Positions 11,401 through 36,165 of a stretch of 64,000 bases of DNA are shown here, in pieces. Each line of letters begins with the position of its first letter. Position 1 is the stretch's first letter. Source of the stretch: Leptolyngbya sp. Heron Island J (lineage in GTDB: Bacteria > Cyanobacteriota > Cyanobacteriia > Phormidesmidales > Phormidesmidaceae); contig NZ_AWNH01000103.1 of the NCBI RefSeq assembly GCF_000482245.1, forward strand, positions 62,001-126,000. Reading direction: 5' to 3'. A program made the position numbers and the translations under genes. The notes beneath the pieces were generated by a model, which worked only from the letters and a program-made list of their open reading frames with translations, had not been told where the DNA came from and made no database searches.

Positions 11401-12252
11401 ATTGACAATGGTGGTGCCAGGGGTATTTGGGATGGCCAGGTCGCTGTTGACCAGTCGTACAGTTCCGTCGGTGTCTAACTCCAGACTACTGATGGTAGTA
11501 TCCCCTGCTCCCGTTAAGAGTTCTGGCAGGGTGAATGGAGATAATACTGTGTCGCCGCTGGGGGCAATGTCATAGCTGAGCAGTGAACCGTCTGGGCTGA
11601 GACGAATCATTTGTTCACTGGCAACAGATGAGATCGCAACCTCTCCAGCTGATAGATTGCCGGTGGAAACAACGGTGCCACCCGCCAACATCAGCGAGTT
11701 GTTTTCACCAAGATTTAAATTAGCGGTATTGACCACTGAACCGAGGCGACTCAACCGAAATACCAACCCCGTTGGACTACCCACAAGACTGCCATAGTCA
11801 GGGGTGCCCACCATCTCCAAAATGTCTTCTCCAAAGGCCAATCCATCAGCGGTAGAAACACTCAGATCGCCCGGTAACGCCAGGGTCGCATCTGGACCAA
11901 ATACCACCCCCACTGGATTCAGCAAAAATAGATTGGCCGTGCTGCCTGTGATCCCTAGCTGGCCATTAATAATCGATGGATTCCCACCATTAATTCGCCC
12001 AATTACATTCACCACATTGGGCTGAGTTATGAAGGTAGCGGCTTCTGCTGAGGTAAGACCAAATTGTTCAAAACTATGAAAGAGATTCTCTCCATCGTTG
12101 GAGCGGGTTCCCCCTGTAATCTGATGGTCGCCATTAACATTCGTAACAGTTGTATTGGCTCCATTGGGGGTAATCGACTGCGCCCCAACATTACCCCCCC
12201 CGACTAACAGGCCACTGATGATCAGGGCTGCACAACTTCTGATGCATACCAT
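8449..12252 (-). CDS. Filamentous haemagglutinin-type secreted CHAT caspase-like protease
   Basis: A 1267-residue exoprotein. After a signal peptide (cleavage near GAQS, residue 25) comes the TPS/haemagglutination-activity domain (about 28-180, with the typical NGENLFHSF-like segment and FLLNPVGVVFGPDATL), which is the signal for TpsB-mediated export. Residues about 180-780 form a beta-helix-like repeat region. A (DP)n linker lies near 786-806. The C-terminus (about 950-1267) is a CHAT domain, a caspase-like peptidase fold, with catalytic His1110 in HLATHGEF and Cys1153 in VLSACRTALG. The start ATG is preceded by GGAG at 9 bases. Related haemagglutinin/CHAT proteins are recurrent in filamentous cyanobacteria; the target is unknown. 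No TpsB partner is present in this window. Confidence 0.88.
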   Translation of the reverse strand: MVCIRSCAALIISGLLVGGGNVGAQSITPNGANTTVTNVNGDHQITGGTRSNDGENLFHSFEQFGLTSAEAATFITQPNVVNVIGRINGGNPSIINGQLGITGSTANLFLLNPVGVVFGPDATLALPGDLSVSTADGLAFGEDILEMVGTPDYGSLVGSPTGLVFRLSRLGSVVNTANLNLGENNSLMLAGGTVVSTGNLSAGEVAISSVASEQMIRLSPDGSLLSYDIAPSGDTVLSPFTLPELLTGAGDTTISSLELDTDGTVRLVNSDLAIPNTPGTTIVNGEITARDITLLGDTVGMVSSQLDASDPDGGGVIQIGGSYQGQGPLPNAEIVYVSADSVVDASATVNGNGGEIIVWSDQTTNALGQFLAKGGPNGGNGGLIETSGLQGLTLGNNTPNVSAPAGTAGLWLIDPLNVEIGNFETTPFDETGDVFSPLSSPAQINVGLIIDALGQGGTVTITTGTDGTEEGNITLVSDLFYDTIDGEATLSLQAAGSIFINGTIQPDLELNSEFGLPPQPLNVELLADTNGGGVGQVVIDTVGEIFFGSAINTSGGDLTISADSSNLTRAGDLSAILIAGNNTVDTTAIFSEEGLGGLVSLTGTAGNRPGILIEETAAIFSGNGITLVGNSETDVGVRIDGNLNTLDSSLEITGNSTTNPIGILISDELNTGNQLTLISDNDIQVESLVANGDITVTTPKFFRALGIAQLFMSEGNFPDLEGSVLSRNGQVTITHGGNGLTPFDVGDAGVNGTAGAIVATESEIQPVESFLGDEIRGDISILTGDPPDPDPDPDPDPDPDPDPDPELPDVDDCDADCTTNRPRPELIDDNPEVVISVEPQLLPDAQQAILRNETRYTDEFQDYLNLGTEEGTIPNLPQVQMELSLIAEETGEPPAIIYVSFVPGDTAGEPGAVAPKAGREIQATDILELVVITPDGPPILKTLPVQHEQLQRTADRFRRNVINPGRFRTRTYLSAAQALDSWLIDPLEAELTQRGITNLAFVMPPGLRSLPVSALHNGDQFLIERYSVGLMPSVSLTDLRYVDVRQTEVLAMGASDFADQPELPAVPIELSTIADQLWPGDFVINETFTPDALKASRARKPYGIVHLATHGEFKAGSLDNSYIQFWDQRLSLDQVRSLGLNDPAVELMVLSACRTALGNEEAELGFAGLAVQAGVKTAIASLWKVDDVGTAGLMTQFYTSLQTEPIKAKALRQAQLAMLNGDIQVENGQLIWSGGTLELPEDLSQIDSSLFSHPYFWASFTTIGSPW
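9838..9897 (-). repeat. Tandem 6/12-bp repeat encoding (Asp-Pro)n
   Basis: Alternating GGGTCC/GGATCx-type units encode about nine Asp-Pro dipeptides inside the CHAT protein near residues 786-806, just before a Cys-containing DDCDADC segment. Such repeats form stiff extended linkers and are prone to length change by slippage. Confidence 0.8.
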
Positions 12253-15878: not shown

Positions 15879-18752
15879 ATGACATCTTTTATACTTCCTG
15901 CTAAGTCTGATCATCGTCAGCCGATAGAACCGCGCGTCCAGATCGACGAAACTGCCCTGGCGATTTTTGATAGTCGTGTGGATGACTTGCCACTTTTACT
16001 GGCAGGGCTGCGACCTGGGGTCAGTGCCCATGTGCTGGACCCGAACCGTGATGGCATTGAACAAATTAGTGAGTTGGTGCGTCAGCATCCCACCACATCC
16101 CTGACCCTGGTGGCCCATGGTGCGCCCGGTGAGTTGCAGCTGGGGGCTGACAAGCTGCAACTGGCCAATCTCAATACTTATACTCAGCATCTGAAAAGCT
16201 GGTTTAGAACCGCTGATGCGGCCCGTCTGACCCTATTGGCCTGTCAGGTAGCTGCCGGGGATGCGGGTACGGAATTTGTCGCAGGGTTGGCAGAGTTGAC
16301 CGGGGCTGTGGTGACGGCGGCAGCGACTGTTGTGGGGAATGGGCAATGGCCCCCCGTCGCTACTCAAACATTTCGGCAGTCGGTGTTGGATACCTATAGC
16401 GCTACCCTGGTGCTGACCTTTAAGCAGGCGATCAAAGATGGCAGTCTGGATGGTGGCGATCCGGATGTGAATCGATTGTTTGGCACATCGGGGGTGACGG
16501 TGAGTCCCGATGGCACCCAGGTGTTTGTGACCAGTGCAATCGATGCTTCCCTGACGGTCTTTAATCTGGATGCGTTTGGGAATTTGACATTTAGTCAGGT
16601 GATCCGAGATAGCTTTGAGGTAGACGAATTATTTGGGGCCTTTGGGGTGGCGGTGAGCCCCGACGGTAGCCAGGTGTTTGTGGCGAGCACGGGGGACAAT
16701 TCCCTGACGGTGTTTAGCCGCGATAGTGCTGGCATCCTGACGGAGCAACAGCTGCTAAAAGATGGCCGGGGTGATATTGAAGCCCTGGAAGGAGCAACTG
16801 ATGTTGCGATCGCGCCCGACGGCAGTCAGGTGTATGTGGTCAGTTCAGTGGATTCAGCCCTGACGGTGCTCGATCGAGATGAATCTGGCAACCTCACTTT
16901 TCGCCAGGCCATTGTCGACGATTTTGGTGGAGCCAACGAACTCTTTGGAGCTTCAGGGGTGGCGGTGAGTCCTGACGGTAGCCAGGTGTTTGTCACCAGC
17001 CAAGACGATGCCGCCATTACCGTTTTTGATCGAGATGCCTCAGGTAATTTATCCTTTCGTCAGGCGATTAAAGACGGTCAGAATGGGGTCGAGCATCTAT
17101 TTGGAGCCTCGGGAGTCGTAGTCAGCCCTGACGGCAACCAGGTCTATGTCGCCAGCGCCGTTGATGCGGCCATCACCGTCTTTGATCGCAATGCTGACGG
17201 TACCTTGAGTTTTGCCCAGGTGGTGCTTGATGGGGACGATGGTGCTGAACTCTTTGGCGGCACCGGCGGCACCGGCATTGTCACCGTGGACGGATTTACT
17301 GGCATTAGCATCAGCCCCGATGGCAACCAAGTATTTGTTACTAGCTTTGGCGATAGTGCCATTACCGTCTTTAATCGAGACGCGGCCGGACGACTCACCG
17401 TCGACCAGGTGATTCAAGATCAAGATGGGGTCAACGGAGCTAATGAACTGGCAGGAGCCATCGGTGCAGTTGTTAGCCCTAATAATCAGCAAGTCTTTGT
17501 GGTTAGCACCACAGATAATGCCCTGACCGTTTTTAACCGTGACCTGGCTCCCAACCTGCTCAGCATTACCCGGCAGACGCCAGCCACCACCGAGACCGAC
17601 GCTGATACGCTGGTGTTTCGCGTCACCTTTAGCGAAAGCATCCAAAACATTACCGCTACTGACTTCACTGTGTCCGGTGGCTCCACCGCGACGGTTAGCA
17701 ATATCACCGCTGTCAGCGCTACCGCTTACGACATTACTGTGTCCGGTGGCGACCTGGCTGACTTTAACGGCATCGTTGGTCTGGACCTGGCTGCTGGTCA
17801 AGACATTACCGACCCCATTGGCAATTCATTGCCCACCACCGAGCCGACGATCGATGAAACCTACAGTCTGGTTAACGAAACCATAATCACCCCCAACAAG
17901 CCGGCCCAACTCACCCCGCTATCAGGGTTAGAGATTACCGGGTTAGGGACTGACAACACCCTGCGTCTGCATGTGCAAGCGGTGGATATTGCAAGCGTGG
18001 GTGAGATTCGGATTATTGACGTGAACGGTGCTAACCGTACTCAAATCGGTGAGTTCTTTTTACTGGAAGGCGGTCGGTTACCAGCTGCCTACAGGCCTGC
18101 GTTTAGTATCGATAGCAGCCAGGTTAGCGAAGGACAGTTTTTAGAATTTCAGCTGGTAGTAGACGGCACGATTCAGCTAGCAACACCAGCGGTGATTAGT
18201 GCCACTGAAGTGGCGCTTAACTTTGGGGAAGGCACCCAGCTAACGGTCGAGACCTTTACCCAAACGGCAACAACCAATCTGTTGGTGAATGATGCGGCTG
18301 CAATTGACCTGACTGGCCAGACTGGTGTGGTCAATGTTGACTTTACCGTCTATCGCGAAGCGGCCCTGAACAGTACCATCGGGTTTTACACGACTGACTT
18401 GATTGACGGTGGCATCCGCGATCCCCTCACCGGCAACACGTTACAACCCGGCGATGCTGGCTACAAAGAAGCGGCTCTGGCCAACCGACTCGATATAGAA
18501 CTAACCGGAAAAAATAATCAGGTCAGCACATTCTCTGCTGAACTCGCTGCTGGCGGATTCTTGGCTATCTTCCTGGTGGCTGATGGCGGCAATCCAGCCA
18601 CGGGAGAAGTCTTCTTTAGCCATGCCGGGGCCAATAACAACAACGATGACCACGCTCGACTCCTGGGCGACAATATGTTTGGCTTTGAAGATTTAAGCGG
18701 TCTTGGCGATCGCGACTATAACGATATGGTGGTGGAGTTTTCGCTTGGTTAG
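15879..18752 (+). CDS. DUF4347 / seven-bladed propeller / DUF4114 exoprotein
   Basis: A 957-residue modular protein. Residues about 25-175 are a DUF4347 domain with His80 (TLVAHGAPGELQLG) and Cys122 (LLACQVAAG). From about 185 to 560 there are seven repeats of about 50-60 residues, each shaped xQ.I.D......LFGA.GVxVSPDGxQVFV.S..D.A.TVF.RD..G.L, which gives one complete seven-bladed lactonase-like beta-propeller. Residues about 565-680 look like an Ig-like domain (FRVTFSESIQNITATDF). The C-terminus (about 860-957) is a DUF4114 domain ending in LSGLGDRDYNDMVVEF. There is no classical signal peptide; acidic Gly/Asp-rich DUF4347 proteins are often type I exported. A role in surface or matrix biology is inferred only. 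Confidence 0.85.
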   Translation: MTSFILPAKSDHRQPIEPRVQIDETALAIFDSRVDDLPLLLAGLRPGVSAHVLDPNRDGIEQISELVRQHPTTSLTLVAHGAPGELQLGADKLQLANLNTYTQHLKSWFRTADAARLTLLACQVAAGDAGTEFVAGLAELTGAVVTAAATVVGNGQWPPVATQTFRQSVLDTYSATLVLTFKQAIKDGSLDGGDPDVNRLFGTSGVTVSPDGTQVFVTSAIDASLTVFNLDAFGNLTFSQVIRDSFEVDELFGAFGVAVSPDGSQVFVASTGDNSLTVFSRDSAGILTEQQLLKDGRGDIEALEGATDVAIAPDGSQVYVVSSVDSALTVLDRDESGNLTFRQAIVDDFGGANELFGASGVAVSPDGSQVFVTSQDDAAITVFDRDASGNLSFRQAIKDGQNGVEHLFGASGVVVSPDGNQVYVASAVDAAITVFDRNADGTLSFAQVVLDGDDGAELFGGTGGTGIVTVDGFTGISISPDGNQVFVTSFGDSAITVFNRDAAGRLTVDQVIQDQDGVNGANELAGAIGAVVSPNNQQVFVVSTTDNALTVFNRDLAPNLLSITRQTPATTETDADTLVFRVTFSESIQNITATDFTVSGGSTATVSNITAVSATAYDITVSGGDLADFNGIVGLDLAAGQDITDPIGNSLPTTEPTIDETYSLVNETIITPNKPAQLTPLSGLEITGLGTDNTLRLHVQAVDIASVGEIRIIDVNGANRTQIGEFFLLEGGRLPAAYRPAFSIDSSQVSEGQFLEFQLVVDGTIQLATPAVISATEVALNFGEGTQLTVETFTQTATTNLLVNDAAAIDLTGQTGVVNVDFTVYREAALNSTIGFYTTDLIDGGIRDPLTGNTLQPGDAGYKEAALANRLDIELTGKNNQVSTFSAELAAGGFLAIFLVADGGNPATGEVFFSHAGANNNNDDHARLLGDNMFGFEDLSGLGDRDYNDMVVEFSLG

Positions 18753-18915
18753 CCCAGCTTGCGATCGCATTCCTAAAATGGCAACAACTTTATACTGGGG
18801 CTGGTTCATCAATGGAACCGACCTAGCCTGTAACGTTCGCCCCAAAGAAAGTGCCTAATGCCCTGCGGCCTGGAGTCACTCATCCTTACTTTGAACACAG
18901 GTATTGATATTTGCC

Positions 18916-18937
18916 TAGCAAAACGGACTGGTAAAAT
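18916..18937. promoter_or_regulatory. Degenerate operator, partner of the 18942 palindrome
   Basis: Centred at 18925, exactly 32 bp upstream of the centre of the main palindrome. Over 22 flanking positions it matches the consensus TTTTACTAAAC-S-GTTTAGTAAAA at 14. The same offset is seen at the second locus. Confidence 0.5.
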
Positions 18938-18941
18938 TAAT

Positions 18942-18972
18942 GCTATTTTACTAAACGGTTTAGCAAAATAGC
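18942..18972. promoter_or_regulatory. 31-bp palindromic operator (TetR-like), locus 1
   Basis: A palindrome with 15-bp arms (14 of 15 matched) around a central G at 18957; the core is CTAAAC-G-GTTTAG. It lies 128 bp upstream of the pentapeptide gene that opens the efflux cluster. An almost identical palindrome lies at 25195. The symmetry and core are of the kind bound by TetR-family repressors; the regulator is not encoded in this window. Confidence 0.75.
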
Positions 18973-19099
18973 ATGCACTCTATTAATACTCGATGGCAGA
19001 AAATTAGCAGCTATTTCATCGATTCAACAATCTCACGTTAGTATCCATCCCTCCCTATCGGTAAAAACATTTAATAAAATCCCAAGGAAGGTTACTGTT

Positions 19100-19846
19100 G
19101 TGGCTAATTCTGAGCATATTCAATGGCTTAAACAAGGCGCTATTGTCTGGAATCAATGGCGACAAAAAAATCAATCCCTACGACCCGATTTTAACAGCGA
19201 CTATTGCCGAGGTTGTTGTCTAGTGGGCGCACAGCTCAGCTACAGCAATTTTCACGGCAACGACTTACTGAGGGCTAATCTAAGTCAGGCTCAGCTGATA
19301 GAGGCAAACCTGGGCAACACCTCACTACGCAAAGCAAATCTCAGCGAAGCTCAGCTGTACAAAGCAAATTTGATGCAGTCAGATGCGCGGGAGGCCAACT
19401 TTAACCGGGCTAACCTCCGCTATGCAGATTTAATCAAAGCAAATCTTAGCAAAGCCCAGTTTATTGAAGCTGAGCTTCCTCATACCCTATGGATTAAGGC
19501 AAATTTAAGCCAGACAGTTCTGATCAGAGCTAATCTTCAGTGGGCCGATTTTACTGGAGCCTCTTTGACTGGAGCCGATCTGAGTAAAGCTGACTTACGA
19601 GGAGTGAGCTTTTTAGGAGCCGATTTACGAGGTGCAATTCTCATGGGCAGCCGTCTAGACAACGCCTTATTTGAAGAAGCCAATCTGCAAGGGGCGAATT
19701 TTACTGGAGCCTATTTTGTTAAGAACGATCGGTCCGATGGCTTTAGAACAGTGGATGTAACAGTCTCATCTCCGCCTGCAGATCGATCTTTATTAATGTC
19801 ATATACTTCATCAGAACAACTCAATGTTACTCAATCTGCGAGCTAG
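19100..19846 (+). CDS. Pentapeptide repeat protein heading the export cluster
   Basis: A 248-residue soluble protein. Residues about 45-205 are tandem A(N/D)LxxA-type pentapeptide repeats (for example LRANLSQAQLIEANL, ADLSKADLRG), predicted to fold as a right-handed quadrilateral beta-helix. The N-terminus (IQWLKQGAIVWNQWRQKN) is the short cap common in cyanobacterial members. The GTG start has AAGGAAGG about 9 bases upstream. Some pentapeptide proteins protect DNA gyrase (Qnr, MfpA); here the position ahead of a MacAB-like exporter would fit self-protection, but that is inference. It is separated from the adaptor gene by 334 bp. Confidence 0.88.
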   Translation: MANSEHIQWLKQGAIVWNQWRQKNQSLRPDFNSDYCRGCCLVGAQLSYSNFHGNDLLRANLSQAQLIEANLGNTSLRKANLSEAQLYKANLMQSDAREANFNRANLRYADLIKANLSKAQFIEAELPHTLWIKANLSQTVLIRANLQWADFTGASLTGADLSKADLRGVSFLGADLRGAILMGSRLDNALFEEANLQGANFTGAYFVKNDRSDGFRTVDVTVSSPPADRSLLMSYTSSEQLNVTQSAS

Positions 19847-20180
19847 GATCTACAGTGACGGTAGGGATGATTTTAGTCCTGGGTCTGCTGGTGGATGTCT
19901 TCATTAAAAACAATTTTTGGATGTTATAAACCCATGTGTAATTGAGACTGCATTTATGCAGCTGCAGGAAATTTATGATATTTTCCACTGGACGTAAAAT
20001 TGTGTAATCGCATCCTTTACGATTACGTGGATCAAAACTCATTGGCAGACAACCTTAAATATGCTGTTCGTCCATTTGAGCTGGGGAATGTGAAAATTTT
20101 CATGGTCCGTTAGTGACTTTTGGCAGATTAAAAATAAACAAAATTCAATTAATTTAAGGGCATTGACCAGGGCTCCTTTT
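19847..20180. other. Intergenic region between pentapeptide and adaptor genes
   Basis: About 330 bp with no supported gene. A small inverted repeat CTGCAT-tt-ATGCAG lies at 19948-19961. The adaptor operon probably has its own promoter here. Confidence 0.45.
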
Positions 20181-21599
20181 ATGAGTTTGCCATTGCCCCA
20201 ATTCTCTGACCATAGTCCTATCTCGAAAGCAGGAACCGCTTTTAAGCATCCAGTTAAACATCGCCTTGTTCAAGGTACTGTTGGCTTCTTGCTTTTGAGC
20301 ATCCTCACAGGCGATAGCTATCTGCTCTATCGGCAGTTTGTTCTGATCCCCCAGCAGCAAGAACAAGCCCAAACGCTGACGGTTGATGTTGAAACTGCCA
20401 CGCTACCAATTACGGTCGCAGCTAACGGGACCGTTGAGCCTGAGCAACTGACGAATGTTAGCCCTAAAACATCAGACCGTTTGGAAAGCGTGACCGTTGC
20501 TGAAGGCGATGCGGTAGAAATAGGTCAGGTTTTGGCCTATATGGACAATTCTGACTTGCAAGGCCAGTTGCTCCAGGCGCAAGGGCAGCTGGCCTCAGCC
20601 CAAGCAAATTTGGCCATGCTGGTTGCTGGCAATCGCCCCCAAGAGATTGCCCAAGCTGAAGCAACCTTAGCCAGTGCCAAAGCTAGCTTAAACCAGGCTG
20701 AAGAGGAGTTGAGTCGCTATGAGGCCCTTTATTCCCAGGGGGCGATCTCCGCGCAAGAAACCACGGCCTACCGCACCGCTCGCGATACGGCTCAGGCCCA
20801 GGTGAAAAGCGCACAGCAGGCATTAAATCTTAGCCAAGCGGGTACCCGCCAAGAAGAAATCGATCAGGCTGAAGCCGCTGTGACCCAAGCGAAAGGTGCT
20901 TTAACCACAGTTGAGACTCAGATTGAAGATACGGTGATTCGGGCTCCTTTTAGCGGGATTGTCACTGCCCGCTATGCTGACCCAGGAGATTTTGTTTCTC
21001 CATCAACTGCCGCCAGCGAAACGTCGTCATCGTCGTCATCGTCGATTCTCTCGTTAGCCTTTAACTACCAGGTTGTTGCTAACGTGGCAGAGACTGATAT
21101 TGCTCAGATTCAAACCGGGCAGCTGGCTAAGATTCAAGCTGATGCCTACCCAGATCGGCAGTTTGAAGGGACCGTAGTCCAGGTTGCAGAGCAGGCAACG
21201 GTCAGTTCTAATGTGACTAGTTTTGAGGTGCGGGTCAATCTTTCTGAAGCAGCGCAGCTACAGCCTGGAATGAATGTAGATATTGAATTTCAAGCCGGTG
21301 AACTGACTGATGTAATGGTGGTGCCCACCGTTGCCGTTGTACGAGAAGAGCAGGGAGAAGGTGTGCTGGTGCTGACAGCAGAGGGGGTGCCTCGATTTCA
21401 GCCGATTGAAACTGGATTAACATTTGATGATCAGACAGAGGTGATTGCAGGACTTGAGGGGGATGAAAAAATTGTGTTGAGTGCGGCTCAGGGATTACCT
21501 GAAAATCGACAAAATCGAGGCGGTCCACCTTTGATACCGGGGGACGGCTCTGGTAATGGCCCTAGCGATGGCGCACCAAGAGGAGGTCCTGGTGGTTAA
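20181..21599 (+). CDS. HlyD/MacA-type membrane fusion adaptor
   Basis: A 472-residue periplasmic adaptor of a tripartite or ABC exporter. One N-terminal transmembrane anchor (about 32-52) precedes a lipoyl-like strand region (TVDVETATLPITVAANGTVEPEQ), a long alpha-hairpin coiled coil (about 120-245, Ala/Gln/Glu rich), the second lipoyl half (DTVIRAPFSGIVTARYADPGDFV), and beta-barrel and membrane-proximal domains. The last 30 residues are a Gly/Pro-rich tail. I use the ATG at 20181; the TTG at 20163 has its purine run too close. It overlaps the permease gene and should form a complex with it and the ATPase. Confidence 0.9.
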   Translation: MSLPLPQFSDHSPISKAGTAFKHPVKHRLVQGTVGFLLLSILTGDSYLLYRQFVLIPQQQEQAQTLTVDVETATLPITVAANGTVEPEQLTNVSPKTSDRLESVTVAEGDAVEIGQVLAYMDNSDLQGQLLQAQGQLASAQANLAMLVAGNRPQEIAQAEATLASAKASLNQAEEELSRYEALYSQGAISAQETTAYRTARDTAQAQVKSAQQALNLSQAGTRQEEIDQAEAAVTQAKGALTTVETQIEDTVIRAPFSGIVTARYADPGDFVSPSTAASETSSSSSSSILSLAFNYQVVANVAETDIAQIQTGQLAKIQADAYPDRQFEGTVVQVAEQATVSSNVTSFEVRVNLSEAAQLQPGMNVDIEFQAGELTDVMVVPTVAVVREEQGEGVLVLTAEGVPRFQPIETGLTFDDQTEVIAGLEGDEKIVLSAAQGLPENRQNRGGPPLIPGDGSGNGPSDGAPRGGPGG

Positions 21600-22866
21600 G
21601 ACTCAAGCACGTTTAACCTACCTGCCATCAATCTCCATAACAGAGATTTTAACGATGGCGATCGCAGCTCTCTGGAGTAACAAATTGCGCACGGCCTTAA
21701 CCATGTTAGGTGTCATCATCGGCATCACCGCCGTAATTGCGGTCACCTCTGTAGGGCAAGGGGTACAGTCTGCTACAGAAGCAAATTTGCAGGGACTGGG
21801 TGCAGATCTTTTGCAGGTGCGGGCCGGGGCTGCAAATACTGGCAACGTCAGCCAGGGTAGTGGCAGTGCCACCACGCTCACCTGGAGCGATGCCCAGGCG
21901 ATTGAGTCCCAGGTGTTATCCGTTGGAGCCGTGACGGCCTATCTACAACAAACAACTCAAGTGGTTTATGCCCAAAACAATATGTCTACAACCGTCTTGG
22001 GCACGGATACAAATTATGCAGAGGTGAATAACATTACACTGCAGTCGGGACGTTTTTTTACCCTAGATGAACTGACAGCCGCTCAGCCAGTGGCGGTATT
22101 GGGACCAACTGTAGAAGATGAATTATTTGGTAGCGATACTTCTATTGGCAAAAGTATTCGCATTCAAGGACAGCGGTATAGCGTGATTGGGATTGCCAAT
22201 GAGAAGGGGGCCCAGGGTCGAGAGAATCCTGACGAACAGATCTATGTGCCGCTGACGAATATGTCTGCTCGGTTGGTCGGCAACAACGCCCTAAGCGGGA
22301 TTGCCGTTCAGGGTATTTCGATAAAAGTGACTGAGCAAGACCAGTTAGAAGCAGCTGATTTCCAGATTACAAACTTGTTGCGAGTGCGTCATAACATTTA
22401 TCCCGCCAAGGGTGATGAAGATGATTTTCGGATTGTGAGTGCTGCTGATTTGGTGGAGACATTGACCAGTACGGTGGGTTTGTTTACGATTATGGTGGTT
22501 GCGATCGCAGGTATCTCTCTAGTCGTAGGCGGTATCGGCATTGCTAATATTATGCTGGTGTCAGTGGTAGAGCGCACCCGAGAGATCGGTATTCGTAAAG
22601 CAGTCGGGGCGACCAATCAAGCGATTTTGAGTCAGTTTTTGATAGAGGCAATCTCAATTTCGGCTGTGGGTGGAGGCTTAGGAGTAGGGTTGGGAGTGGC
22701 CATTGCCCGGATCGCCGCCACCTTATTTGATTTTCCCTTTGTAATTTCTCTCTGGGCGATTGTTTTAGGAGTGGGTCTTTCTTTTGTGATTGGTATTGTC
22801 GCCGGTGTGATTCCCGCCCGCAGTGCTGCAAAATTAGATCCGATTATTGCCCTGAGAAGCGATTAG
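21592..22866 (+). CDS. MacB-type ABC exporter permease
   Basis: A 424-residue permease of the MacB/FtsX type. One transmembrane helix near residues 35-55 (LTMLGVIIGITAVIAVTSVG) precedes a large periplasmic domain (about 60-290), then three C-terminal helices with the FtsX signature SVVERTREIGIRKAVGAT. The GTG at 21592 is chosen because AGGAGG (21581-21586) lies 5 bases before it; an earlier in-frame ATG at 21556 would lie inside the adaptor gene. The overlap with the adaptor stop is 8 bp, which points to translational coupling. MacB systems export peptides, macrolides or lipoproteins; the substrate here is unknown. Confidence 0.9.
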   Translation: MVKTQARLTYLPSISITEILTMAIAALWSNKLRTALTMLGVIIGITAVIAVTSVGQGVQSATEANLQGLGADLLQVRAGAANTGNVSQGSGSATTLTWSDAQAIESQVLSVGAVTAYLQQTTQVVYAQNNMSTTVLGTDTNYAEVNNITLQSGRFFTLDELTAAQPVAVLGPTVEDELFGSDTSIGKSIRIQGQRYSVIGIANEKGAQGRENPDEQIYVPLTNMSARLVGNNALSGIAVQGISIKVTEQDQLEAADFQITNLLRVRHNIYPAKGDEDDFRIVSAADLVETLTSTVGLFTIMVVAIAGISLVVGGIGIANIMLVSVVERTREIGIRKAVGATNQAILSQFLIEAISISAVGGGLGVGLGVAIARIAATLFDFPFVISLWAIVLGVGLSFVIGIVAGVIPARSAAKLDPIIALRSD

Positions 22867-22899
22867 AAAAGGGTCTTATCAGGTCCAAAAATTAATGAA

Positions 22900-22960
22900 G
22901 AGACGTTCCATGGAACGTCTGTACGTTCAATAGGAGAGACGTTCCATGGAACGTCTGTAC
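22900..22960. repeat. Two copies of a 25-bp unit with a 20-bp perfect palindrome
   Basis: AGACGTTCCATGGAACGTCT occurs at 22901-22920 and 22937-22956, each flanked by G and GTAC so that 25 bp are duplicated 36 bp apart. This is a dispersed cyanobacterial palindrome type. It sits inside the exporter operon, between permease and ATPase, where the transcript would fold two strong hairpins. Confidence 0.88.
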
Positions 22961-22964
22961 ATCT

Positions 22965-23642
22965 ATGGCTGCCATGATTTGGATGGAAGACATTCGCAAA
23001 ACCTATCAGTTGGGTGAAGTTAATGTCCCCGTACTCAAGGGGATTGATCTAACCATTGAAGAAGGTGATTATGTCTCGATTATGGGAGCCTCAGGTTCCG
23101 GAAAATCTACCCTGATGAATATTATCGGTTGTCTGGACCGTCCGTCTGCTGGCCACTATGTGCTGGAAGGACAAAACTTGACCACGCTAAACAGCGAAGG
23201 ACTGGCCTATATTCGCAATCAGCGCATTGGCTTTGTCTTTCAGCAGTTTAATCTGCTGCCTCGCTCAACTGCGTTAGAAAATGTCATGCTGCCGATGATC
23301 TATGCGGGGGTGAGCCGTCGTCAGCGGCGAAAACAGGCAGAATCAGCTTTAATGCGGGTAGGGCTGGGCGATCGCATGGGCAATCGACCCAGCCAGCTCT
23401 CTGGGGGACAACAGCAGCGGGTTGCGATAGCACGCGCCCTTGTCAATCGACCAGCATTGGTCCTGGCTGACGAACCCACAGGTGCACTCGATACCCAAAC
23501 GTCTTACGAAGTGATGACACTTCTCAGCGAACTCAACAGCCAAGGAATTACTGTCATCATTGTCACCCATGAGCCCGATATCGCAGCACAAACCCGTCGT
23601 GTTATTCATGTGCAAGATGGTCTGCTTCAAAGAGAAAATTAA
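22965..23642 (+). CDS. ABC transporter ATPase of the MacB/LolD type
   Basis: A 225-residue nucleotide-binding subunit. Walker [10 protein letters not shown] is at 41-49, the Q-loop glutamine near 93, the signature LSGGQQQR at 145-152, Walker B VLADE at 166-170, and the switch histidine in VTHEPD. The sequence context ([33 protein letters not shown]) is typical of the LolD/MacB/YknY subfamily. It energises the upstream permease and adaptor. In E. coli MacB the ATPase and permease are fused; here they are separate as in Gram-positive YknYZ. It is separated from the permease by about 100 bp that carry two palindromic repeats. Confidence 0.93.
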
Positions 23643-23763
23643 CCCTTTCGGGTCTTGCAAAATTTTGATCACTCTGTTATTTGAGACACGGTCTCCTAGC
23701 AGAACTTCCTTGTATCCAATTTGATAACTAGCACCTACTTCGTGAATGCTTTGGCTATCTTTC

Positions 23764-23777
23764 GTACGTTAGTACGT
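23764..23777. repeat. Short inverted repeat upstream of the cysteine-motif protein
   Basis: CGTAC and GTACG arms around a 4-base spacer, about 35-45 bp before the ATG at 23810. It is a possible operator or chance. Confidence 0.25.
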
Positions 23778-23809
23778 GAATCAGTGCATTTCAGAAGACT
23801 ACTTTTAGG

Positions 23810-24946
23810 ATGTCTATTAAAGCTGCTAGCCTTTTCGCCAGTTTAATGGTTTTCGCCAGTGGAGCTGCCCATGCCCTCCAATCTCTCCCTGCTGATGCGC
23901 CCCTGCCCTCTACTCTGCCAGGTCTAGTCGCTCGCCGCATTCAACTAGACTTGGCGAGACGTCTGAATGTTCCGCCTGAAAATATCATTATTGGAACAGC
24001 GACACCTCAAACTTGGAGCGATCAGTGTCTGGGTTTAGCGCAACCGAACGAAAGCTGCACAGACACAGAGACAAAAGGATGGCGGGTAGAGGTAGAAAGC
24101 TCGCAGCAACGATGGGTTTATCGCAGCAATCGCGCCGCCCGTCGTCTGTATCTAGAACCCTTGCCCAATAGCACTGACTTTAACCAAAGAGACTTTTCTG
24201 CAGACATTAGCCAAACGTTACTCGAAACGGTTGCACAACAGGTTCAGCAACCCGTAGAAAATCTACAAATTCTAGAAGTCCAGGCCGCCACCTGGGACAG
24301 CTGTGTTGGCATTGCTGAATTCGGCGTAACGTGCACACAGGAGACCATTCCAGGATTTCGAGTACTCGTCAACGATGGACCAAAAGACCAGGTCGGCAAC
24401 CTGCAAAGAGACAGCTGGCCAGAGCATCGAGAATTTCAAAGAGAATGGGTGTACCATCTGAATGAAGATGTTTCAGAGATTATTCAAAATACAACCGCCA
24501 GTGACGAAAAAGGTCGAACAGCCACCTGGTTTCGCCGCTCACTAGAGCGTCCTGAGGATCTAGCCCCTCAGGTTGTTTTTCAAACGAGAGCTCGTAACGA
24601 TTTTGCCGGGAATATATATATCACAACGCTAACGGCCGACGGCACGTTGAGTAGGGAGTTGATAAGTTCCAATCCAGACGATAACGCTGCATTAGAGGTC
24701 ATTCCCTCACGTCAGGTCTCCCACTCAGTCGCCACCGAATTTGGCATGCTGTTAGAACGGAAAAACTTTTCTAACCTTGATCAGATGAGCTATACCAATG
24801 AAGATCAGTATCTTGCCACACACGGTACCTTCACGCTCATTAATTATGAAACTGTTGTTGAGATTACCGCTGAAAATGAGGATTTGCCTGCTGACTTGCA
24901 GACTATCCTCGAAGCCTGGGAGACTTTGATTACGTCTTTCCCATAG
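23810..24946 (+). CDS. Secreted protein with duplicated cysteine-pair domain, unknown
   Basis: A 378-residue protein with a signal peptide (1-22, cleavage after AHA). Two copies of a roughly 90-residue unit follow: a leading helix (ARRIQLDLARRLNV / LLETVAQQVQQPV), then TWSDQCLGLA with Cys73 and Cys83, G-W-R-V-E-V, and RWVYRSN; the second copy has TWDSCVGIA with Cys165 and Cys175, G-F-R-V-L-V, and EWVYHLNED. Both pairs are 10 residues apart, suggesting one disulfide per repeat. Residues about 240-375 form an unrelated C-terminal part. I have no named family; similar repeats occur in cyanobacterial lipoproteins by memory. It follows the exporter ATPase by 167 bp and may be its substrate or accessory. 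Confidence 0.72.
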   Translation: MSIKAASLFASLMVFASGAAHALQSLPADAPLPSTLPGLVARRIQLDLARRLNVPPENIIIGTATPQTWSDQCLGLAQPNESCTDTETKGWRVEVESSQQRWVYRSNRAARRLYLEPLPNSTDFNQRDFSADISQTLLETVAQQVQQPVENLQILEVQAATWDSCVGIAEFGVTCTQETIPGFRVLVNDGPKDQVGNLQRDSWPEHREFQREWVYHLNEDVSEIIQNTTASDEKGRTATWFRRSLERPEDLAPQVVFQTRARNDFAGNIYITTLTADGTLSRELISSNPDDNAALEVIPSRQVSHSVATEFGMLLERKNFSNLDQMSYTNEDQYLATHGTFTLINYETVVEITAENEDLPADLQTILEAWETLITSFP

Positions 24947-25166
24947 TTGACTTTTTTGAGTATTATTATGAACATTGTTAGAAAAGACGCCAGAGAAATT
25001 GTAGATGGAACTAGTGTAATCACATAAAGTGATCCTCCGTCTAACCCTGCTGCTGCCCTTGACGCTACTGTTGAAAACTCAGACTCTGCCATCGCTGTTA
25101 CAGCAGCCATGTGCGGTGGCATCTGTCAGACAATCAGAGCATTGGCATATTAGGTATTGACATCTA

Positions 25167-25189
25167 GTTAATTAGACGGTTCAGTAGTG
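25167..25189. promoter_or_regulatory. Degenerate operator, partner of the 25195 palindrome
   Basis: TTAGAC-G-GTTCAG centred at 25178, exactly 32 bp upstream of the main palindrome centre. It matches 14 of 22 consensus positions, the same score and offset as at locus 1. Confidence 0.5.
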
Positions 25190-25194
25190 CTATA

Positions 25195-25225
25195 TTTATT
25201 TTACTAAACCGTTTAGTAAAATAAA
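25195..25225. promoter_or_regulatory. 31-bp perfect palindromic operator (TetR-like), locus 2
   Basis: Two perfect 15-bp arms flank a central C at 25210; the core TTTTACTAAAC-C-GTTTAGTAAAA matches the palindrome at 18942. It lies 209 bp upstream of the hydrolase gene. This places the hydrolase in the same predicted regulon as the pentapeptide/MacAB cluster. Confidence 0.8.
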
Positions 25226-25434
25226 ATTATTAGTCTTTGCTGATTGTTTCTAGCAGAGGTGTGGATTTATGTTTTGCAGCAAGATGTTACGCGAGGTTTA
25301 CTCCCATAATTTTTTCGGCTTCCCTACAACAGTAGCTGCAAGAGCCTTTTATAGAGCACCCCTGAGCTATCGGCAAAATATCCGGCTACCAATCTATCGA
25401 CAACAAACTTTATAAATAACCTCAGGGAGCTCAC

Positions 25435-27036
25435 ATGCTAACAAGATTTTGGCTAAATCGTAGATTACGGTTTCTATTCATTACAGCTGTGACTGGATTG
25501 TTGCAACTGCTTTTATTGACTACGCCTGTTTTGGGGGTGGAACGTATTTATGCGAGCTTTGGCCCACTGGAACGATACATTGAAGTTGCAGATCTGAAAA
25601 CCTATGTAGATACAGGTGAGCTTCCTAATAGTCTTAGTTTCTTGCGCCGTTTTCTCAGCCCAGAACGGCTTGAACGGCTGCGTAGTGGATTGTCAACCAG
25701 TGCAAATATAGATGTGGTAACGGTTTCCCGGTTTCTCTATACCACCCAAGGAGAGGCAATTTTACAGTGGCTGGGAGAGTTAATCCAAACCCAGGGACGA
25801 CAAAATGGAGCCCTTGGGATTCGAGGCTCTTTGATCTTGGCTGCAGCGGACCCTGACGGTGGGTTGAATGCGCTCAATGTGCTGAAGCATTTTCCGACTC
25901 AGGGGGTGCGGGTAGATTTGCAAACCCTGTTAGGCGTAGCCAGAGCCGCCACTAATCAAATCAACCAAACCCAAGCAGTAACAACACAAATTCATGAACA
26001 GGCTAGCTATGTGGGTGACGGCGTCGCAAAAGCTGACGTGTCAGCTCGCGACCTAACATCACCTGGTCCGAGTGTTTGGCAGTTGCTCACCCTAACAGAA
26101 ACCTCGTTACCCACCGATCTCTATCTGCCTGCAGGAGACACACTACCGCTAGTTGTTGTCTCCCATGGTTTGGGTGGCGATCGCACCACTCTAGCCTATT
26201 TAGCCGAACATCTTGCCTCCCATGGTTTTGCTGTGGCTGTCGTTGAACATTCAGGCAGCAATAACGAACAAATCGGAGCCCTCTTAGGCGGCGAAGTGGG
26301 TGAAGTCGTTGAACCAGAGGAAATGGTGCGCCGACCTTTGGATATTCAAACGTTACTCACTGAGCTGGATGCCTTACGCGACCCCACCCTGCGCGATCGG
26401 CTCGATTTCCAAAACGTTGGCGTATTGGGGCATTCCATGGGAGGCTACACCACACTGGCTTTAGCTGGTGCTACTGTTGATTTAGACACCCTGGAGCAGA
26501 GCTGCCCACCCCAGATTAAACAGCTAAATTTATCGCTGTTGTTGCAGTGTTTGGTGCCGTCTCTGCCACAGCCTCTGCCAGAATTACACGATGACCGGGT
26601 GAAGGCTGCGATCGCAATTAACCCTCTCGATAGTGCGGTATTTGGCCCCGCCGGTATGGCCAATATCAAAATTCCTACCATGATTGTCTCGGGCAGTGCC
26701 GACACGGTAACTCCGGCCCTAGCTGAACAACTTCGCCCCTTTACCTGGCTACAGGTACCGGAGCGCTATCTGTTGTTAATAGAAGGTGGTACTCACTTTT
26801 CAGCAATCTATGATTCACAGGGGAGTGAAGACCCAATAGCCTTGCCAGAGGAAGCTTTAGGACCTAACCCTCAGCTGGCTCAAGACTATGTTAAGGCGAT
26901 GAGTGTGGCGTTTCTCAAGACCTATCTAGCAGAGGACGACACCTACCGGCAGTATCTAGACCCGTCACACATAGCCGGTCTCAGTCAGCCTGAGCTACCT
27001 ATGGTTTTGGCCCGTAATGTGATGATTGAGGATTAA
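25435..27036 (+). CDS. Secreted DUF1400/alpha-beta hydrolase (lipase or PAF-hydrolase-like)
   Basis: A 533-residue exported hydrolase. A signal peptide (about 1-34) is followed by a cyanobacterial DUF1400 domain (about 35-165: VERIYASFGPLERYIEVADL, PERLERLRSGL). From about 225 an alpha/beta hydrolase fold begins: oxyanion segment VVSHGLGGDR, nucleophile elbow GHSMGG with Ser334, the acid probably in VSGSADTVTP, and the catalytic His in GGTHFSAI. The layout resembles platelet-activating-factor acetylhydrolase and chlorophyllase-like proteins of cyanobacteria. It is predicted to cleave an ester lipid or polyester outside the cytoplasm. CTCAGGGAGCTCAC precedes the ATG as ribosome site. A perfect palindrome lies upstream. 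Confidence 0.88.
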   Translation: MLTRFWLNRRLRFLFITAVTGLLQLLLLTTPVLGVERIYASFGPLERYIEVADLKTYVDTGELPNSLSFLRRFLSPERLERLRSGLSTSANIDVVTVSRFLYTTQGEAILQWLGELIQTQGRQNGALGIRGSLILAAADPDGGLNALNVLKHFPTQGVRVDLQTLLGVARAATNQINQTQAVTTQIHEQASYVGDGVAKADVSARDLTSPGPSVWQLLTLTETSLPTDLYLPAGDTLPLVVVSHGLGGDRTTLAYLAEHLASHGFAVAVVEHSGSNNEQIGALLGGEVGEVVEPEEMVRRPLDIQTLLTELDALRDPTLRDRLDFQNVGVLGHSMGGYTTLALAGATVDLDTLEQSCPPQIKQLNLSLLLQCLVPSLPQPLPELHDDRVKAAIAINPLDSAVFGPAGMANIKIPTMIVSGSADTVTPALAEQLRPFTWLQVPERYLLLIEGGTHFSAIYDSQGSEDPIALPEEALGPNPQLAQDYVKAMSVAFLKTYLAEDDTYRQYLDPSHIAGLSQPELPMVLARNVMIED

Positions 27037-27670
27037 ATATCTCTATGTACAGGGCAAAAACATAATCGCCTGATGAAGAGTCACTCTTTACTCTTCACCC
27101 TTCATCAAGGGCGAAATCCCCATTTTTAGCTTTGACACGCTGCACTAGGGATTAAAACCTTGCCTGTAAAATAGTTGGCCAGGCATTGACCGCCATCAGC
27201 ATTTTTGCAAAAGGCTAATTTTGAATGGGCGATTGCCATAATCTTATGTTAACCTTTTCTTAAAGTCGAAGTTTGAAGAAAAATCCGCTGTCCTTTCAAA
27301 CGCTTTCCTTAGTTAAGCGACTAATTTCTAAAACTTTGTCTGTATACCGAATCAGTGCATCAACCATCCAAAATCACTGAGTCACAACCTACAGTTTTGA
27401 CTTAGTCAATACAATTCATATTAACTCCTAGACTCAAACTGCTACAGCGAAAGACTCTATGATTGACAAAACTCTTCTCATATAGATGTTTTAGATCTGT
27501 CAAGAAGTTCGACTTATTGTTATAGAGAGCTTATGTTTTAAGCCCAATACATGTTTGACAGTTGCTTACTGTTAACTGTGAAATAGTGGTTTTCGCCATT
27601 TAAGAAGATTTTGGAATTTGGCTTTAGATATCCTTTGAAAGATTCTCAATAGAGAGATTTTGATTTGCTC
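27037..27670. other. AT-rich intergenic region
   Basis: About 630 bp without a supported gene. It holds a nested hairpin at 27071-27107 (TGATGAA/TTCATCA with inner GAAGAGT/ACTCTTC) 35 bp after the hydrolase stop; it lacks a T-run and is a weak transcription end candidate. The remainder is AT-rich. Confidence 0.5.
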
Positions 27671-28306
27671 ATGATGATATTCAAAGAGCGCTGGCATCTG
27701 CTTATATTTATTCCTTCAATTTTATTGATCCTGGCAATTGGTCTAGCTAAAGTACTATTTCAGGTCCCTATTTATAAGTTAATTGGAGATGTTTTCTCGA
27801 TTGCTGATATTCACCCACTCTCCGGTTTGCTCTCGAATATCGGTGTTCTTCTATGGTGTGCGGCAGCAACAATCTGCTTCTTCGTTGCAGGTGTTTTGAG
27901 ACAGACCAAAAACTATAGAGTCATCCCTTTTCTTCTGGCTTCTGCCTGTCTGTCTATGTATCTGTTAATTGACGATTTTTTCCTACTTCACGAGGAGCTA
28001 GTTCCTACCTACATCGGCATCTTGCAGAATACAGTTTTGATGCTAATAATGATTGCGGTCGTCGTGTATCTTTTCTGGTTTCGCCGAATTATCTTGCGAA
28101 CTCAATATGGATTTATGCTGATAGCGATTGGATTCCTAGGCATTTCTGTTGGGGTTGATACTGTCCTTAAGCCGTGGCTACTTTTTCTCGGAGAGTGGAA
28201 GTCCCTGCTTGAAGATGGAGCTAAACTTATAGGTATTACCAGCTGGCTCAGTTATTATACAGATGTAGCCTATCAGTTTTTGTTAGATAAATCTCGTATC
28301 ATTTAG
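27671..28306 (+). CDS. Polytopic membrane protein with DDxFLLHE motif, copy 1
   Basis: A 211-residue protein with about six transmembrane helices. Conserved polar residues sit in or beside helices: Asp101-Asp102-x2-Leu-Leu-His107-Glu108 (DDFFLLHE), a WFRRIIL segment near 136-142, and Leu-Leu-Glu181-Asp182-Gly-Ala-Lys185 followed by GITSW. The minus-strand gene at 60448 shares all of these, so this is a family. I do not recognise a named domain. Paired Asp/His/Glu in membrane helices recall intramembrane metal-dependent hydrolases such as the ceramidase-like group, but that is speculation. The ATG at 27671 is chosen over a TTG two codons earlier. Confidence 0.75.
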   Translation: MMIFKERWHLLIFIPSILLILAIGLAKVLFQVPIYKLIGDVFSIADIHPLSGLLSNIGVLLWCAAATICFFVAGVLRQTKNYRVIPFLLASACLSMYLLIDDFFLLHEELVPTYIGILQNTVLMLIMIAVVVYLFWFRRIILRTQYGFMLIAIGFLGISVGVDTVLKPWLLFLGEWKSLLEDGAKLIGITSWLSYYTDVAYQFLLDKSRII

Positions 28307-28324
28307 CTTGCTACAACGAGTTAT

Positions 28325-28370
28325 GCTGTTGCTGATTTAGGGGGATGCACCAGCCTGTTAGAAATTCCCT
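28325..28370. mobile_element. Truncated MITE copy D
   Basis: GCTGTTGCTGATTTAG followed by GGATGCACCAGCCTG and TTAGAAATTCC matches the right end of the MITE family in reverse orientation (compare the reverse complement of 61281-61372, about 80 percent over 43 bases). Only half the element is present; it ends where the histidine-kinase fragment begins, so it probably marks the break. Confidence 0.65.
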
Positions 28371-28373
28371 ACT

Positions 28374-28547
28374 AGCACGGTTTGGGTCTCGTCTTCGATA
28401 GGCATTGGCTTTTTCAAGCTGAATGTTAATCGCGGCCAGATGATGGCCCAAACTGTCGTGAAGATCTCGGACCAGACGATTACGTTCTGCGATCGCCACC
28501 AGATCAGCCCCACGGGCCGAATAGTGTTTTAGCTCGGGGTGTGTCAC
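28374..28547 (-). pseudogene. Histidine kinase fragment (HisKA_3 dimerisation region)
   Basis: Fifty-eight codons read as the phosphoacceptor region of a NarL-type sensor kinase: ELKHYSARGADLVAIAERNR, then LVRDLHDSLGHHLAAINIQL and EKANAYRRRDPNRA, with the phosphorylated histidine in DLHDSLGHH (residue 30 of the fragment). No sensor domain lies upstream and no ATPase domain downstream. After RDPNRA the frame enters a partial MITE. It is clearly a remnant of a larger gene and unlikely to be functional. Confidence 0.8.
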
Positions 28548-29909: not shown

Positions 29910-30428
29910 ATGGATAACGAAAGAACTGCTAATCTTCTAGGGGCGCTGGCCCTTAGCCTGGTCGACTCCCTAAATTCAGCGATAAAAACTGTCGGATACG
30001 GTGGAGAAGCTCCGGCTGCTCTGGTTACTCTAGGAGCCAATCCTGGACTTTCAATTAATACACTCCGGCAAATCCTTAACCTTTCGCATCCGGGGACTGT
30101 ACGGCTGATTGACCGTCTCGCAGCTCAGAATCTGGTGGAACGTCGGTCTGGGGTGGATGGTCGAACACTAGCTCTTTTTCTCACAGAGGGAGGTCATGAG
30201 CGACGTCAGGAAATTTTGACCGATCGCAAGCAGCAGCTACAGCTTGCCTTAAGCTCACTGACCCAGAGCGATCGCAACCAGCTAACCCGACTCCTAGAAA
30301 AAATGCTCACAGCAGTAACAACCTCTGAGCTTCGCAGTTATGCCATCTGTCGTCTTTGTGAAGAAGAGGCATGTCCGGCCGATAGCTGCCCAGTAGAACA
30401 AAAATATTGCCAGCTACATAACCCATGA
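29910..30428 (+). CDS. MarR family regulator with cysteine-rich C-terminus
   Basis: A 172-residue winged-helix regulator. The recognition region is about 50-95 (SINTLRQILNLSHPGTVRLIDRLAAQNLVERRSGVDGRTLALFLT, the typical DGR wing). The C-terminal tail carries Cys147-x2-Cys150-x4-Cys155-x4-Cys160-x6-Cys167, a possible redox or metal-sensing element. A perfect palindrome at 29862 suggests autoregulation. The stop overlaps the start of the EamA transporter (ATGA), so the regulator and transporter form an operon and the transporter is its likely target. The ligand is unknown. Confidence 0.9.
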   Translation: MDNERTANLLGALALSLVDSLNSAIKTVGYGGEAPAALVTLGANPGLSINTLRQILNLSHPGTVRLIDRLAAQNLVERRSGVDGRTLALFLTEGGHERRQEILTDRKQQLQLALSSLTQSDRNQLTRLLEKMLTAVTTSELRSYAICRLCEEEACPADSCPVEQKYCQLHNP

Positions 30429-31306
30429 ACAGCACCTTGCTTGCCATTGGTTACGCCTTTTGTTGGGGGATGGGCGTTACCCTGACCAAAGTCGCCTTAT
30501 CAGCAATTACGCCAACAACGCTGCTGATTATTCAGCTCTTTTCCAGCGTTCTCTTTTTAATAACGGTTTGTTGGCTAACAGCTCAAAAGCTACCGTTTTC
30601 CTGGCAACATCTCAAACAGGGAGTCGCTGGCATTTTTGAACCCGCCCTCGCCTACATGTTTGGTATTGTCGGCATACAAATGACCACTGCCAGCAATGCC
30701 ACACTGATTGGCTCAACTGAGGTAATTTTAACCATTTTGTTGGCTGCGATTTTTCTAAATGAGAGGCTGACACGCCTAAAGCTGCTGCTGGCTAGCATTA
30801 GCTTTGTGGGAGTTTCTTTATTGATGTTAAAAGATGTTCAAAATACTGACCAATCTTCACTTATGGGCGATGTCCTGGTGCTAGTGGGAACTCTTTTTGC
30901 AGTATTCTATGCGCTTTTAAGCAAACGTCAGATCGCAACAGCCCATCCATTGCAGCTGACCACATCGCAGCAAACGATTGGCTTAATAACAACGGTGTTG
31001 TGTTTTGGTGGGCTATCGCTGCTTAATCCAGTTTATGCGGTCAGTGCGGCCAACATTTCCCTGCCGTTTTGGCTGCTTGCCATTGGTTCAGGCATTATGC
31101 AGTACGCTCTGGCATTTTTGTTATATCTCATTGCTCTGCAAACGGTACCGGCAAGTCATGCGGCATTTTATCTAACCCTAATTCCTGTTTTTGGTGTGAC
31201 GAGTGCAGTGCTAATCATTGGTGAACAGCCAAGTTTTGCTCAGGCTATTGGGGGCTGTTTGGTAGTGGCATCATCCTATTGTGCCAACAGATTAACAACA
31301 TTATAA
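30425..31306 (+). CDS. EamA/DMT family transporter
   Basis: A 293-residue inner-membrane protein with ten predicted transmembrane helices in two EamA repeats (about 1-135 and 145-290), each ending in the typical xxGxxLI/xxxGEQ pattern (IFLNERLTRLKLLLASISFVGVSLL; VLIIGEQPSFAQAIGGCLVVASSY). Drug/metabolite transporters of this type export amino acids, toxins or metabolites. Translationally coupled to the upstream MarR regulator by a 4-base overlap, so expression is presumably induced by a compound it exports. The specificity cannot be inferred. Confidence 0.92.
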   Translation: MNSTLLAIGYAFCWGMGVTLTKVALSAITPTTLLIIQLFSSVLFLITVCWLTAQKLPFSWQHLKQGVAGIFEPALAYMFGIVGIQMTTASNATLIGSTEVILTILLAAIFLNERLTRLKLLLASISFVGVSLLMLKDVQNTDQSSLMGDVLVLVGTLFAVFYALLSKRQIATAHPLQLTTSQQTIGLITTVLCFGGLSLLNPVYAVSAANISLPFWLLAIGSGIMQYALAFLLYLIALQTVPASHAAFYLTLIPVFGVTSAVLIIGEQPSFAQAIGGCLVVASSYCANRLTTL

Positions 31307-36129: not shown

Positions 36130-36165
36130 CCCCGTAGGGGCATTGCATGCAATGCCCCTACGGGG
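36130..36165. repeat. 36-bp perfect palindrome (dispersed repeat, possible terminator)
   Basis: Two perfect 18-bp arms (CCCCGTAGGGGCATTGCA and its complement) with no spacer. It lies between convergent tehB and the transporter fusion gene, where it could end both transcripts. This GTAGGGGCATTGCATGC-type palindrome is recurrent in cyanobacterial genomes (by memory). Confidence 0.85.

Follow-up and report, generated by a model that had tools for sequence, protein, structure and literature searches.

Local TetR repressors of tripartite efflux pumps, such as those of the AcrR, MtrR, NalC and AefR type, have a tetR gene divergent from the exporter genes and a palindrome in the shared promoter. Passages of PMC8277102 describe this as the arrangement of the majority, with a TetR dimer that covers the promoter and a ligand that lifts it. 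Here we describe a 64,000-nucleotide stretch of the cyanobacterium Leptolyngbya sp. Heron Island J (contig C103, positions 62001-126000; the window) that carries two 31-bp palindromes, one upstream of a pentapeptide-repeat gene and the other upstream of a gene for a DUF1400 alpha/beta hydrolase. On the basis of sequence comparisons, we consider it probable (about 0.82) that both are operators of an AefR-like TetR regulator encoded on a different contig, C98, and that this regulator would control both genes. At C98 the layout is that of the local efflux repressors. It differs from them in having putative extra operators at distant loci (the pentapeptide and hydrolase genes here, TolC-type genes in other genera), often as doublets of variable spacing. 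Efflux genes under TetR control are well known, while the set of targets and the scattering of operators over distant loci seem new; neither a description of this circuit nor the sequence CTAAACCGTTTAG was found in the literature of one open-licence library. The comparison names a candidate regulator, its operator and a few targets in a group whose TetR circuits are little described, and it indicates that a distant regulator is findable from two palindromes alone.

Two other described systems are close. The DevBCA/HgdBC exporters, which work with the TolC homologue HgdD in Anabaena, resemble the tetR-linked exporter of C98, which passes the NCBIfam cut-offs for DevB (TIGR02971, 353.1 bits against 129), DevC (TIGR01185, 431.9 against 290.35) and DevA (TIGR02982, 367 against 295.8). 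The window's own exporter, in contrast, is MacAB-like. Some DevBCA-like exporters act in drug resistance, according to passages of PMC8277102. In the literature passages on DevBCA/HgdBC exporters, no TetR control of them was found; the string "tetr" in the passages of PMC6161253 and PMC6692557 belongs to tetrazolium, Tetrahedron and the like. FrrA, described in passages of PMC4070704 as a flavonoid-responsive TetR beside an efflux system in Bradyrhizobium, likewise adjoins efflux genes. However, a site like the one described here was found at 0/18 Rhizobiales homologues of the C98 regulator (best score, 13/21), which are a soft control because they are distant and differ in base composition.

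Palindromes and partner sites of the window

The coordinates of all features are given in Table 1. The arms pair at 14/15 positions in operator 1 and at 15/15 in operator 2. When the window was searched with TACTAAACSGTTTAGYA at up to 3 mismatches, four strand matches were obtained, corresponding to these two places, and shuffles gave an expectation of 0.25. Sites were scored against a 21-position consensus, TTTACTAAACSGTTTAGTAAA, derived from the window's main sites, with which operator 1 agrees at 20/21 and operator 2 at 21/21 positions. A perfect 30-bp palindrome at window position 36147, CGTAGGGGCATTGCATGCAATGCCCCTACG, bears no relation to the operator.

A preliminary description of this DNA had assigned each palindrome a degenerate partner 32 bp upstream, both scoring 14 of 22 positions. 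The positions held, and the scores became 14/21 and 15/21. Main sites aside, the partners are the sole positions scoring at least 12 within 45 bp. The window together with 24 other loci amounts to 308,106 positions; of these, main sites and partners included, 37 score at least 14 and eight at least 15. The two upstream stretches were dinucleotide-shuffled 20,000 times. A score of 14 arose at locus 1 in 1.2% of the shuffles and a score of 15 at locus 2 in 0.035%; a score of 14 at both loci arose in 0.01%, in no case at one common offset. By these shuffles, the two palindromes with their upstream partners, as described earlier, are far above chance.

The two promoters also have GGTATTGAYAT in common, in the same register, and a promoter scan of the window called nothing at the copy before operator 1. 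Together, the equal 32-bp spacing and this in-register element may mean that one promoter was copied from the other.

A regulator gene with the same site on another contig

The host genome (G000) comprises 8.06 Mb in 119 contigs. A whole-genome scan allowing at most one mismatch gave 3 places, with 0.05 expected from base composition (49% GC), and the third strong place lies on C98, between tetR and the divergent devB. Looser scans showed no excess over the reversed pattern (5 versus 4 places at up to 2 mismatches, 16 versus 41 at up to 3), so only close matches are informative. Weak genome hits on C109 and C66 fall within open reading frames (ORFs). Repetition of the palindrome hundreds of times in the genome had been named as an outcome that would refute the preliminary description, and the three strong copies in 8.06 Mb rule out a dispersed repeat. 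A broader form of this idea is that the palindromes are mobile or structural elements, namely, hairpins, terminators or insertion remnants. Their arms reach 15 bp or more and a palindrome in the related genome G004 spans about 45 bp, lengths beyond what a TetR site requires; operator 1 looks like a minus-strand terminator; and both window copies lie within segments absent from sister genomes. Nonetheless, each of the three strong copies precedes a gene, and the position by tetR or devB is conserved over many genera, which makes this explanation highly improbable.

The genome was also scanned with a matrix, as the preliminary description had proposed. It was built from sequence only, using 34 sites at tetR promoters of other genomes and none from G000; sites below 16/21, duplicates and eight loci (seven without a near site, and the duplicate L083) were excluded, and the same-genus genomes G004, G005 and G007 were included. 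The tetR-devB promoter ranked first (E, 3e-6), followed by the window sites centered at 25210 (1e-5) and 18957 (0.003). The next two places (E, 0.145 and 0.40) are inside ORFs. The independent part of this result is that the top places include the tetR promoter and nothing besides it and the window sites.

At C98, devB is divergent from tetR and is followed by devC and devA, and a Na/H antiporter gene with a Usp domain lies behind tetR. The regulator matches TetR_N (PF00440) with 66.0 bits against a cut-off of 24 and the AefR-like C-terminal domain TetR_C_7 (PF14246) with 58.1 bits against 22. It falls in no named NCBIfam family (AcrR, BetI, RutR, FasR, etc.), since all 19 matching models score far below cut-off. 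By sequence profile, the closest solved structures are the TetR/AcrR regulators 6g87, which we take to be FrrA, and 6g8h, then 3bhq, 8wrf and NalC (8ke8), with AefR (3cdl) ninth. None of the 28 TetR_N matches in the genome is on the window's contig, consistent with the earlier statement that the window has no TetR gene. The TetR gene with an autoregulatory copy that was sought then is the one found at C98.

The linkage of site and regulator was followed in 42 relatives of the TetR alignment from a named collection, consisting of the 18 Rhizobiales proteins mentioned above and 24 others (23 cyanobacterial by their titles, plus Pyrinomonas). With the window-derived consensus, a site of at least 15/21 was found by tetR or devB in 24/24 of the non-Rhizobiales homologues and a site of at least 17/21 in 17/24; the L232 region was extended to 1300 bp, and its site adjoins devB. 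Block shuffles of the same 24 regions gave a mean of 0.4/24 and a maximum of 2, and the reversed consensus gave 0/24. When these regions were scanned without any motif, 23 palindromes emerged. CTAAAC or GTTTAG is present in 15, which are spread across 14/24 regions, and a further palindrome, in L234, is closely similar. In 22/24 homologues, the best site is flanked by tetR and the start of a leftward ORF. The exceptions are L211, where the best site runs into the start of the longest ORF called, and L231, which has no such ORF of 150 amino acids. The DevBCA set itself is not universal among the 24, being absent at L230, L231 and L234. Of the 30 TetR homologues in a wider set, 23 carry a site of at least 15/21 within 400 bp. 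The 40 genomes examined were chosen from 143 with a preference for those with sites, and the figure of 32/40 is therefore not a rate; the two sets overlap (L211 is G005, L212 is G004, L217 is G048, L219 is G036, L221 is G050, L225 is G032 and L229 is G007). Within the genus, the regulator occurs in 4/8 genomes (G000, G004, G005 and G007), all four with a 0-mismatch site, and none of the four genomes without it has a place at one mismatch or fewer.

These results bear on whether some other regulator binds the palindromes, for example another TetR or the MarR-like protein encoded at 29910-30428 of the window. The genome offers many candidates in its 28 TetR_N matches. Against this stand the sites by this particular TetR in every one of the 24 non-Rhizobiales homologues and the finding that G000 has no fourth place at one mismatch or fewer or at a matrix E below 0.1, and we judge a different regulator to be very unlikely.

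In QacR-type operator doublets, two dimers sit close together on one promoter. In contrast, the palindromes here are separate, often unequal and 21-35 bp apart. Doublets are present at the tetR promoters of 16/24 homologues, with spacings of 21-22 bp in 11, 28-31 bp in 4 and 34 bp in 1. The tetR promoter of G000 has a doublet at 27 bp, and L075 and L080 have doublets at 35 bp with a second site of at least 15. The preliminary description had proposed cooperative binding on one DNA face at 32 bp. Doublets are indeed common, but the fixed spacing did not hold up, because homologous promoters have distances of 21-35 bp or single sites, though both window promoters have 32. A distance of 32 bp is compatible with one helix face; 27 bp is not. 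We read the partner, from its sequence, as an auxiliary site that would raise occupancy and not as part of a fixed cooperative frame. As a separate observation, four operator copies (17-20/21) lie within 350 bp upstream of a tetR homologue in genome G089 (L020:1352-1697).

By analogy with described TetR systems, we infer binding, repression and ligand release, and the doublet may be used cooperatively. The C98 TetR would probably repress itself and the divergent DevBCA exporter via the same 17-21 bp palindrome. At the window promoters, a dimer on the main site might be aided by a second dimer on the site 32 bp upstream, and this occupancy would block transcription of the pentapeptide and hydrolase genes. 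A ligand, probably a lipophilic compound handled by the exporter, would release the regulator.

Candidate targets of the regulator

The hydrolase gene, one of two targets named in the preliminary description that stand, is a well-supported candidate member of the regulon, both from its position and from the genes around its relatives in other genera. Its relatives sit in the tetR-devBCA cluster in several genera, directly after devA in G014, G032, G048 and G050 and with one ORF between in G036; in G000, the gene lies elsewhere, apparently under its own operator copy. A lone hydrolase relative in G029 is preceded, 169 bp ahead of its ORF, by a 19/21 site of its own, and the same genome has the TetR gene next to devB and devC, where two sites are present (L297). 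In a tree of 30 homologues, the window hydrolase falls inside the clade of devA-linked or site-bearing proteins (support, 0.937) and, within it, in a subclade with G036, G032 and G039 (support, 0.946). Its N terminus, read by eye, is hydrophobic, suggesting that the protein may be exported. DUF1400 proteins are little described in cyanobacteria, and a tie between such a hydrolase and DevBCA export would be a directly testable link.

The pentapeptide gene is the other target that stands. Only its position supports it as a putative target. As a conserved regulon member it was rejected, as no convincing site-bearing relative was found among 13 other homologue loci.

In other genera, a site precedes a TolC-type outer-membrane efflux gene in at least 8/18 scanned genomes (G021, G023, G028, G029, G032, G036, G046 and G048). 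Pfam OEP was confirmed at four of the eight loci (L295, L298, where the gene is in two frames, L299 and L310), and at L300, L302, L303 and L306 the call was made by neighbor gene and length. Several of these sites are moderate (matrix E, 0.01-0.04). TolC-type genes of G000 and its genus were dropped as targets, having no site of at least 15 near the gene start; in G004 and G005, the TolC-type gene has a shared 14/21 match 28 bp before its start. At seven of the eight site-bearing loci, a PDZ-like gene lies on the other side, often followed by an undecaprenyl-diphosphatase-like gene (names by sequence reading).

Several observations weigh against a C98 regulon that includes the two window genes. 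Because the matrix rows were chosen by likeness to the window consensus, the matrix result for the window sites is not wholly independent, and 150/2394 first-look matrix candidates were scored. Operator 1 is one base off the consensus and has the lowest scores (E, 0.003 and 0.007), and the best site at the 13 other pentapeptide homologue loci is 15/21 (L325 and L326), more than 600 bp from the match. For the hydrolase, a DUF1400 gene was found in only 4/24 named loci, some of them truncated; the G029 hydrolase site has no 32-bp partner; and G011 has a close hydrolase relative without devA and without a site of at least 14 within the 2 kb surrounding its start (L205). In the wider set, 7/30 regulator homologues lack a site of at least 14 within 400 bp (L062, L068, L071, L074, L078, L079 and L084), though in L062 and L068 sites lie farther away, by devB. 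Of the four genus genomes without the regulator, two have a completeness of only 70-75%, and a single weak matrix match (E, 0.08) occurs in G003. Finally, the two TolC-type genes found in G000 have no site of at least 15, unlike those of the eight relatives.

From the gene set, we infer that exporter, exit duct and hydrolase would deal with a lipophilic compound. A wider proposal, which we offer tentatively and hold to be rather less than an even bet, is that one TetR runs an envelope-clearing module in filamentous cyanobacteria, made up of a DevBCA pump, a TolC-type duct and an exported DUF1400 hydrolase that would process the cargo or its conjugates. The operator would move with single genes, such as those for the hydrolase and the pentapeptide protein, and so re-assemble the regulon without the cluster.

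Neighboring genes and further sites

Table 1. Features of the window and of the regulator locus on contig C98
Feature	Coordinates	Strand	Remarks
Main operator 1	18942-18972 (core 18949-18965, center 18957)	.	31-bp palindrome GCTATTTTACTAAACGGTTTAGCAAAATAGC, upstream of pentapeptide-repeat gene
Main operator 2	25195-25225 (core 25202-25218, center 25210)	.	31-bp perfect palindrome TTTATTTTACTAAACCGTTTAGTAAAATAAA, upstream of hydrolase gene
Weaker partner of operator 1	18915-18935 (center 18925)	.	14/21; 32 bp upstream of main site
Weaker partner of operator 2	25168-25188 (center 25178)	.	15/21; 32 bp upstream of main site
Shared element, copy 1	18900-18910	+	GGTATTGATAT; contains -35-like TTGAYA
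Shared element, copy 2	25153-25163	+	GGTATTGACAT; in register with copy 1
tetR	C98:40244-40888		214 amino acids; other contig of same genome; own site C98:40170-40186
Pentapeptide-repeat protein gene	19100-19846	+	248 amino acids; putative target; absent at this place in G004 and G005
DUF1400 alpha/beta hydrolase gene	25435-27036	+	533 amino acids; putative target; close relatives behind devA of tetR-devBCA cluster
HlyD/MacA-type adaptor gene	20163-21599	+	regulon membership doubtful
MacB-type permease gene	21556-22866	+	regulon membership doubtful
ABC ATPase gene of MacAB-like exporter	22965-23642	+	regulon membership doubtful
Cysteine-containing protein gene	23810-24946	+	378 amino acids; no Pfam or NCBIfam match
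Segment without match in sisters	18744-20100 (versus G005); 18744-20087 (versus G004)	.	operator 1 and pentapeptide gene
Segment without match in sisters	23719-28540 (from 23666 versus G004)	.	cysteine protein, operator 2, hydrolase, ORF 27665

The exporter between the two operators (20163-23642) is not a DevBCA system. It scores 92.4 bits with the DevB model (cut-off, 129) and 202.2 bits, below cut-off, with DevA, has no DevC match, and carries MacB-type domains. The sister genomes G004 (Leptolyngbya sp. PCC 7375) and G005 (Adonisia turfae CCMR0081) keep the order DUF4347 protein, HlyD, MacB and ATPase, and their regions matching the window have no site of at least 14, no pentapeptide gene and no cysteine protein; at the second segment the sisters hold other DNA. 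Because the sisters lack both segments and both sites, each window operator was probably acquired, or retained, together with the segment that holds it. The MacAB-like block, collinear in sisters without either, is thus unlikely to be an old target, and the earlier inclusion of the HlyD, MacB permease and ATPase genes in the regulon was not borne out.

A variant of the proposed circuit keeps the C98 TetR on these operators but places the pentapeptide, HlyD, MacB, ATPase and cysteine protein genes on one repressed transcript. All of these genes run in the same direction, and the pentapeptide gene with its operator comes immediately before HlyD. No plus-strand terminator-like site was found in 19847-20162, so read-through from the pentapeptide promoter may occur. 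However, 316 bp separate the pentapeptide gene from HlyD, and collinearity with the sisters resumes at 20088 (G004) or 20101 (G005), 62-75 bp before HlyD, so that the old HlyD promoter may be kept. In addition, about 500-600 bp before HlyD has no site above 13/21 in G004, G005, G032, G028, G039 or G012. We regard a single repressed transcript as unlikely and favor separate control of the pentapeptide and hydrolase genes by the C98 regulator.

Homologues of the cysteine protein are found in 80/143 genomes. As a conserved regulon member it was rejected, the 15 examined homologue regions having other neighbors and no site of at least 16. A search for a defence role with PADLOC gave no match for 4 proteins. 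Behind the MacAB-like exporter and before operator 2, the plus-strand stretch 24968-25156 encodes 19 residues, an inner stop and 41 residues with CGGIC near the end; it could be the remnant of a gene for a small exported peptide.

Some of the 20 fetched matrix places in other genomes precede other genes (L296, L305, L307, L309 and L312, among others). In G004 and G005 (L048:9828 and L294:4464), an operator lies between genes for a flavin oxidoreductase and a response regulator (the profile run was made for G005), and the G004 copy sits within a palindrome about 45 bp long. Elsewhere in the window, a 1267-amino-acid ORF occupies 8449-12252, and the gene at 15879-18752, for a DUF4347/beta-propeller/DUF4114 protein, contains repeats that match one another at the DNA level. 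The MarR-like gene lies at the start of 29910-31306 and is followed there by an EamA-like transporter gene, both named by sequence reading.

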